A program made the position numbers and the translations under genes. Under the pieces are notes generated by a model. It saw only the letters and a list, made by a program, of their open reading frames with translations, had not been told where the DNA came from and ran no database searches. Shown piece by piece: positions 12,981-14,148 of a stretch of DNA of 64,000 bases. Numbering within the stretch: position 1 is the stretch's first letter; every line of letters starts with the position of its first letter. The DNA comes from Actinobacillus arthritidis (GTDB taxonomy: Bacteria; Pseudomonadota; Gammaproteobacteria; Enterobacterales; Pasteurellaceae). Location: positions 868,001-932,000 of the forward strand of contig NZ_CP103833.1 of the NCBI RefSeq assembly GCF_029774155.1. The letters are read 5' to 3'.

Positions 12981-14148
12981 TTAAAATAAATTTTGCTGGT
13001 TATTATCAATTTTTTGAGCAATACCAATCCCCTCATACTTCTCAAAGTCCTGAATAATTGCTAGAAAATTTTCTTTTCTCTAATGGAATTTTACTATCTG
13101 TAAAATTGTCGTAAAATAATCAGGAATACCTAATTGCTTACGTTCTATATGTTCTAAATCATCAAACATAGATTTAAACGATTCCGAATTTGTTTTATTT
13201 TTATTAAATCTCTCTTGATTCGATGCTCGCATTATAACGGCAAAAATAGGCTCTCTTTTCCCATAACAAATCAGGCTTTAATCTTAAAATAACCCAATCA
13301 TTATCTGGATCTACTCCATTCTGTATTTCTTGATTTTTTCTAATTCCCCAAAACATTTTATAATTAGGAAAAGAAATAGAACAACAAATACCATTCTGAA
13401 TATTATCGATACGATGATGATCGTTATAGTAATAATCAATAGATGCATCATATAAACTACTTCTACCTAATAATCCATATTCTAAAATATTTTTTACGTT
13501 ATCTAGGCGAGTGAAATGGGTCAGGAATTTTATACCTCTACGTTCCACTTCTGATTTTATGATTTTTTGTTCTTCACTTAATTGTTGTTCTTGATGAAGA
13601 TCACGAAGTATTTCATCAAGACTTGTTTTGGAAGAGTCTGATAACAAATCTCGAATAACTGAAGATGTTCTTGGAGATAGAATGAAAGTATTATTCTCTA
13701 TTTCCTTTTTATCTTCTATATTAGCTACAGTAGAGAAAGTGCTAGAAAGGGGAGTTTCGGAAGAAGGGCTTATAATAGTTTTAATATTTTCGCCATTCTC
13801 TTTATTTATTTTGGCTGGCTGGCTGGCTGGCTGGCTGGCTGGCTGGCTGGCTGGCTGGCTGGCTGTTTTTAGTGTAGTTTTTGATTGAAATGGTGTCGAG
13901 CTTTTCGTACTAGAAGTAGAACGAGTTGATGATGAATTTCTGCTGTTTGAACTTGATGAAGAACCTCCCCCAAACAAAGAACCAACAACACAAATTACAA
14001 TGATCCAAAAAATAATATCCTTTAAAGATCTCCTATGTTTAGGATAAATGGAAAAATAAATTCTAAACCAGATCCGTAAAAACTTCAGCAAATTTAACCA
14101 CTTTCCGTTATAATCCCTAACAGATTTTATGGTGCAACTACGCCGCAC
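12981..14148 (-). CDS. Membrane-tethered DarT-like (DUF4433) protein with phase-variable repeat; C-terminus frameshifted
   Basis: The open frame 14148-13204 has a membrane helix (IIFWIIVICVVGSLF, about residues 45-60), a Ser/Thr-rich linker, (ASQP)n from 13 AGCC repeats (about residues 96-112), a charged linker, and from about residue 203 a region like the DarT ADP-ribosyltransferase family: THFTRLDNVKNILEYGLL, NDHHRIDN, SISFPNYKMFWGIRK, LLWEKRAYFCRYNA. It stops early at 13204, but coding similarity continues in other frames (ERFNKNK, IERKQLGIPDYFTT, KIPLEK, ENFLAIIQDFE) to a stop at 12981. The first break is GCGAGC in place of GCAGC; restoring GCAGC gives NAASNQERF. Two further breaks are unexplained. 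No DarG-type macrodomain gene is adjacent. The start is uncertain: the ATG at 14148 has no clear ribosome site, and a TTG near 14091 is possible. Confidence 0.6.
13813..13864 (-). repeat. (AGCC)13 tetranucleotide repeat inside the DarT-like gene
   Basis: Thirteen perfect GGCT units on the plus strand read as AGCC on the coding strand. They lie between the membrane anchor and the DarT-like domain. As assembled the frame is open. In either other frame TAA follows within four codons after the repeat, so slippage by one unit would switch the catalytic part off. Confidence 0.95.

Follow-up and report, generated by a model that had tools for sequence, protein, structure and literature searches.

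The locus described here is best compared with the DarT1-NADAR (DarTG1) systems of Escherichia coli C7 and Geobacter lovleyi (PMC11543638). Within our window, by which we mean the whole 64-kb stretch of DNA analysed, half a DarT1 domain and the tail of a NADAR gene lie in the same order and on the same strand as in those systems, and their intact relatives, the proteins P0001 and P0016, match the structures 8baq and 8bat, respectively. The window differs in having a predicted membrane anchor and a linker with repeats ahead of the domain, and in its broken operon. In the 208-residue chain of C7 DarT1, the match of P0001 begins already at residue 9, and a word search of the main text of PMC11543638 did not find 'transmembrane'. 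DarT2-DarG (DarTG2) has in common with the window the DarT transferase and the ADP-ribosylation of DNA (PMC11543638), but its antitoxin is a macrodomain protein, whereas the remnant in the window is NADAR. Since NADAR is the partner at 69 of 70 related loci, membership of DarTG2 was rejected.

The repeat in the linker has its closest counterpart in the modA phasevarions. AGCC tracts of 9-13 units switch modA in Haemophilus influenzae biogroup aegyptius, with one-unit changes between states (13 ON and 12 OFF, 10 ON and 9 OFF; PMC10783040). In Neisseria modA, a change from 22 to 21 AGCC units turns the N. meningitidis gene OFF, and a change from 37 to 26 units is also described (PMC2667262). The window shares the unit and a similar number of copies; however, modA is a methyltransferase gene whose switching has been demonstrated, whereas the window gene is that of an ADP-ribosyltransferase toxin for which we infer switching itself, since one genome per species was searched and no variation in repeat number was observed. 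In the literature searched (titles and the starts of abstracts of the papers listed, with most subscription journals outside), no paper was found to describe DarT, or a toxin-antitoxin pair, as phase-variable. Excerpts of PMC12409358 mention both DarTG and phase variation, unrelated to each other, and excerpts of PMC6211672 discuss homopolymer tracts for methyltransferases.

An earlier note on this DNA had proposed that a DarT-like gene is switched on and off by the repeats. Its observation is confirmed and its interpretation holds in part: we find a slippage-capable tetranucleotide tract with stops in the off frames, but no working catalytic region is left for it to switch. With considerable confidence, we read the locus as what decay has left of a DarT1-NADAR operon gained by horizontal transfer, with the array in the linker of the toxin gene and the switch idle in this genome.

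A perfect AGCC array and the gene around it

Tandem Repeats Finder, run at its default minimum score of 50, returned a single array in the 64 kb (13812-13865, 13.5 copies, 100% matches). An exact sequence check found thirteen AGCC units on the minus strand at 13813..13864, the fourteenth being absent, and perfect period-4 sequence from 13812 to 13865, so that the 52-base perfect array of the earlier note is confirmed. Among 20 simulated versions of the window (first-order Markov model), tetranucleotide arrays reached 14 bp at most. A 20-bp AGCC pattern (five units) occurs in this genome, a single 2.27 Mb contig, inside the array only, and is absent from all eight congeners, one of whose genomes is 81% complete. 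Other classic repeat units, GCACA x4 and CAAT x5, were not found in the genome.

By repeat finding and frame translation, (AGCC)13 encodes a cyclic A-S-Q-P peptide in all three frames. The assembled frame reads (ASQP)n and stays open as far as 13204, and the first stops of the two other frames come 4 and 8 nt beyond the end of the array; both features had been read correctly from the letters. A contingency gene has a pure array within its reading frame, built of a unit that is not a multiple of three, and off frames that end before the functional domain, and both are found here; a functional product in the ON state is missing, the start, the second half of the ART domain and the antitoxin having been lost.

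A second array in the same 64 kb, a pentanucleotide at 61721, turned up with a looser repeat script. This (TTGCC)4.6 (61721-61743, minus strand) lies upstream of an ORF at 59623-61638 and within the first codons of a 38-aa ORF (ATG 61747), the stop of which overlaps the beginning of a gene for an N6 DNA methylase (PF02384, E 1.4e-28). The other two frames have stops just after the array, which is a possible second repeat switch that would act on the restriction-modification-like gene through coupling. Among the congener matches listed, none runs across it.

The AGCC array lies in a mechanically called ORF of 314 aa (13204..14148, minus strand), which by the ORF list, Pfam and the comparison with congeners combines the anchor, the array and half of the ART domain, the first. 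From 14148 to about 14078, the codons with which the ORF opens are intergenic DNA common to the congeners. The codons of the predicted anchor occupy 13960..14016 on the minus strand, where the stretch preceding the array reaches a mean hydropathy of 2.26 over 19 residues and where the relatives P0002, P0003 and P0008 have a predicted anchor in the same place. Downstream of the array, at 13225..13518 (minus strand; ORF residues 211-308), Pfam and the alignment with P0001 place the opening half of the DarT1 domain, NAD-binding residues included. The Pfam DarT match of the ORF (E 7.3e-8; score 32.8 bits, cut-off 22.5) covers profile positions 2-111 of 201. In keeping with the earlier note, the array has a hydrophobic stretch before it and a DarT match after it; what the note did not see is that the match ends at position 111 of the profile, that the catalytic half is absent and that the start codon of the relatives has no counterpart here.

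Intact relatives and their linkers

A protein search with the ORF, in which the best 7991 candidates by shared words were scored, returned at least 13 relatives. P0001 (206 aa) is 98% identical to the ORF in a local alignment that covers 34% of the query; its Pfam DarT match runs to profile position 174, and the second half of the domain is present. Against 8baq, the structure of E. coli C7 DarT1, it scores E 4.3e-29, and its E152 stands opposite an Ala of the 8baq chain; the C7 enzyme was crystallised as E152A, and substitution of E152 alone inactivates it (PMC11543638). P0016 is an intact NADAR protein of 253 aa that matches the Geobacter lovleyi NADAR of 8bat. Both intact alleles were analysed as proteins. 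The nearest homologue with DNA is L018, from a Neisseria MAG, where a 255-aa ORF 10 bp after DarT is NADAR-DarT1 (PF22397, E 5.1e-74). Of 71 loci examined, L013 was set aside because it lacks a DarT match; in 69 of the remaining 70, all except L077, a NADAR match lies on the same strand 3-639 bp past the end of the DarT match. PF22397 was found in 9 of 140 family genomes, eight of them being the eight genomes with DarT-domain hits other than the one studied here. The ninth (G096, locus L109) has no more than a fragment of such a NADAR-DarT1 gene, interrupted by a stop, and is perhaps a second decayed copy of the DarT1-NADAR system in another Pasteurellaceae-family genome.

Hydrophobic N-terminal stretches (mean hydropathy >2 over 19 residues) occur at five of the 70 DarT1 loci (L018, L042, L045, L063 and L074), which suggests, at the level of predicted sequence, a membrane-anchored DarT1 subgroup. 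A literature search combining DarT1, NADAR and transmembrane found no paper.

Within 700 bp before the DarT match, a non-triplet array of at least 18 bp was found in L018 alone among the 70 loci. The linker array is thus not a general feature of the DarT1 family, which counts against a conserved switch. The L018 array, in the linker of the Neisseria darT1 homologue (7723-7747, plus strand), is (AACAGCC)3.6, a heptanucleotide whose length is not a multiple of three, and its off-frame stops lie 66 and 76 bases from the array start. In the same interval, L055 has AGAA x3.2, single-base runs of at least 8 occur in L008 (A12), L030, L051, L056, L061 and L070, and the Pasteurellaceae homologues L005-L012 have no tetranucleotide array. 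The linker peptide of P0003, as aligned, has no such repeat. A search with off-state N-terminal fragments (a 70-residue piece ending in the array) gave one match of E 8.2, which is not meaningful.

The linkers of the relatives bear on the alternative that survives best, in which the array would be a tunable linker: steps of three units (12 bp) would resize an (ASQP)n spacer between anchor and enzyme, and out-of-frame changes would be harmful accidents. Glaesserella P0002, P0004 and P0005 carry one, two and three full copies of NVQRPTS in the same linker, P0005 without an N-terminus, and a unit of seven residues, or 21 bp, would keep the frame. (P0004 represents 25 sequences predicted without an anchor; P0002 is one sequence with an anchor.) However, with the 4-bp unit of the window only every third step keeps the frame, and each of the two off frames meets a stop within 8 nt. 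We consider a tunable linker unlikely.

Still less probable, in our view, is that slippage frees the toxin, an off-frame array leading to use of a downstream start (TTG 13647 or GTG 13548) and hence to a soluble DarT1 domain without its anchor. P0001 and Glaesserella P0009 (197 aa) are predicted as such anchorless DarT domains, and the first residue of P0001 is the one encoded in the window by GTG 13548, downstream of the array. Yet the 18 nt before GTG 13548 contain no Shine-Dalgarno-like sequence, and gene callers choose downstream starts of this kind when the upstream frame is closed. The predicted start of P0001 would fit an out-of-frame array in that strain, which is suggestive and not proof; other causes, such as a lost start, could as possibly explain it.

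A decayed and acquired island

The decayed, acquired operon that we favour occupies 12970..14077 (minus strand), a stretch absent from five congeners (L090-L094), in which the base corresponding to 12969 of the window directly meets that corresponding to 14078. Its G+C content is 32%, against 39% for the window. At its edges lie a left direct repeat of 26 bp (12944..12969), identical at 24 of 26 positions to 14078-14103, and a right direct repeat (14078..14103), of which the empty site of the congeners has one copy. The 20-base core of this repeat recurs at 32 places in the genome with at most two mismatches, against none for a reversed control. The edge repeat resembles uptake sequences, a likeness that suggests, without proving, entry by natural transformation. 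In the window there are 20 copies of ACAAGCGGT and 0 of AAGTGCGGT; on the meaning that we presume for these motifs, the counts, together with the Glaesserella relatives, point to kinship with Pasteurellaceae.

An intact-looking pair, a BrnT toxin (PF04365) and a BrnA antitoxin (PF14384), directly adjoins the island (12376-12907, plus strand), and this flank is found at the same place, at 89-91% identity, in three of the five congeners with the empty site. In the other two, the match to the BrnTA flank is confined to its last 56 and 126 bases (80 and 75%). For a further two congeners (L095, L096), the match starts only at 14103 or 14104, and the genome that is 81% complete (G004) has no match to the island-flank region. 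In a check for carriage by mobile elements, phages gave no match at the protein level and plasmids none at the DNA level; 26 plasmid records match as protein, every one below 60% identity, and two viral-contig loci reach 34 and 37%.

At the 5' end of darT1, the codon that aligns with the start-methionine region of P0002 and P0003 is 14020..14022 on the minus strand, the pairing being our reading of the alignment. In both proteins the start methionine is directly ahead of the anchor. The codon in the window is not a start codon; AGGAGA nonetheless stands 6 nt upstream of it. Other candidate starts were rejected: GTG 14148 and TTG 14091 fall beyond the edge of the island, within the intergenic DNA shared with congeners, and TTG 13977 lies within the anchor stretch.

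At the other end, translation and alignment place a change of frame near 13225, where the ORF leaves the DarT frame. The next 40 darT1 codons follow in another frame (13107..13226, minus strand) and are identical, 40 of 40, to the intact allele P0001, and the gene then breaks off just before the stretch with the catalytic glutamate. Near 13106 it passes into the final part of the NADAR antitoxin gene that follows: a short piece in another frame (about 13080-13106, minus strand), from about residue 211 of P0016, is followed by the last 32 codons and the stop (12984..13079, minus strand), identical to P0016 at 32 of 32 residues. About 210 of the 253 antitoxin residues are missing by comparison with P0016. 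Since the break in darT1 directly precedes the end of the NADAR gene, a deletion has joined the middle of darT1 to the nadar tail. No match to PF22397 (NADAR-DarT1) is left anywhere in the genome.

Measured against a DarTG1 operon, the window has a DarT ART domain, though one covering 2-111 of the 201 profile positions only; it lacks the catalytic glutamate (E152 of E. coli C7 DarT1), a residue that P0001 has; and directly downstream only the end of a NADAR gene remains. By its sequence, then, the locus is a remnant of the DarT1-NADAR (DarTG1) family and not a working member. The catalytic region that the earlier note saw downstream of the array is not there, the ART domain being cut at about half, with the NADAR gene mostly deleted and the start missing. 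An assembly error could mimic some of these lesions, but several separate lesions make it unlikely. With start, catalytic half and antitoxin lost in the assembly, an active enzyme cannot arise at any repeat number. The reading of the locus as a working phase-variable DarT toxin that is ON as assembled has in its favour the frame open across the array, the stops in the other frames and the intact first domain half (98% identical to P0001), but it is contradicted by the assembled sequence, in which the catalytic-glutamate region is absent (substitution of E152 alone kills the activity of C7 DarT1; PMC11543638), no NADAR-DarT1 match exists in the genome and no start codon stands at the homologous position, and we give it hardly any credence.

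Possible switching in intact alleles

In the model that we propose, the operon would have inserted between the BrnTA pair and rnb, at a dispersed repeat resembling uptake sequences. Its intact first gene would encode a predicted DarT1 guanine ADP-ribosyltransferase preceded by a membrane anchor and a low-complexity linker, and its intact second gene a NADAR antitoxin. Slipped-strand mispairing at the AGCC tract in the linker would shift the frame and bring in a stop 4 or 8 nt beyond the tract, ahead of the transferase; in an intact allele the tract would thus presumably be an on/off switch for the toxin, with the antitoxin gene outside the switch. In this genome, the losses of start, catalytic half and antitoxin leave every repeat number without an active product.

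A phase-variable, membrane-anchored DarT1 is accordingly plausible in intact strains and not in the genome studied here. The downstream start of P0001 is a first hint of it, and the (AACAGCC)3.6 array in the Neisseria linker a second, weak one. That, in strains of the species with an intact operon, the AGCC tract makes DarT1 a bet-hedging phage-defence toxin, with a fraction of cells armed at any time and the antitoxin gene outside the switch, is possible, though we lean slightly against it.

The locus also carries a caution: the perfect repeat and the open frame gave the appearance of a live switch, but the gene behind them is dead. What it preserves is a fresh-looking snapshot of the loss of a toxin-antitoxin operon, in which half of the toxin and the antitoxin go together and two remnant stretches (40 and 32 codons) are still identical to the intact alleles P0001 and P0016. 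Slippage in intact strains, if true, would place a toxin-antitoxin system under slipped-strand control. If intact alleles switch, a population would have a way to carry a costly DNA-modifying toxin by keeping it off in most cells, and DarT1-NADAR would stand beside phase-variable restriction-modification systems among the defences that bacteria arm stochastically.
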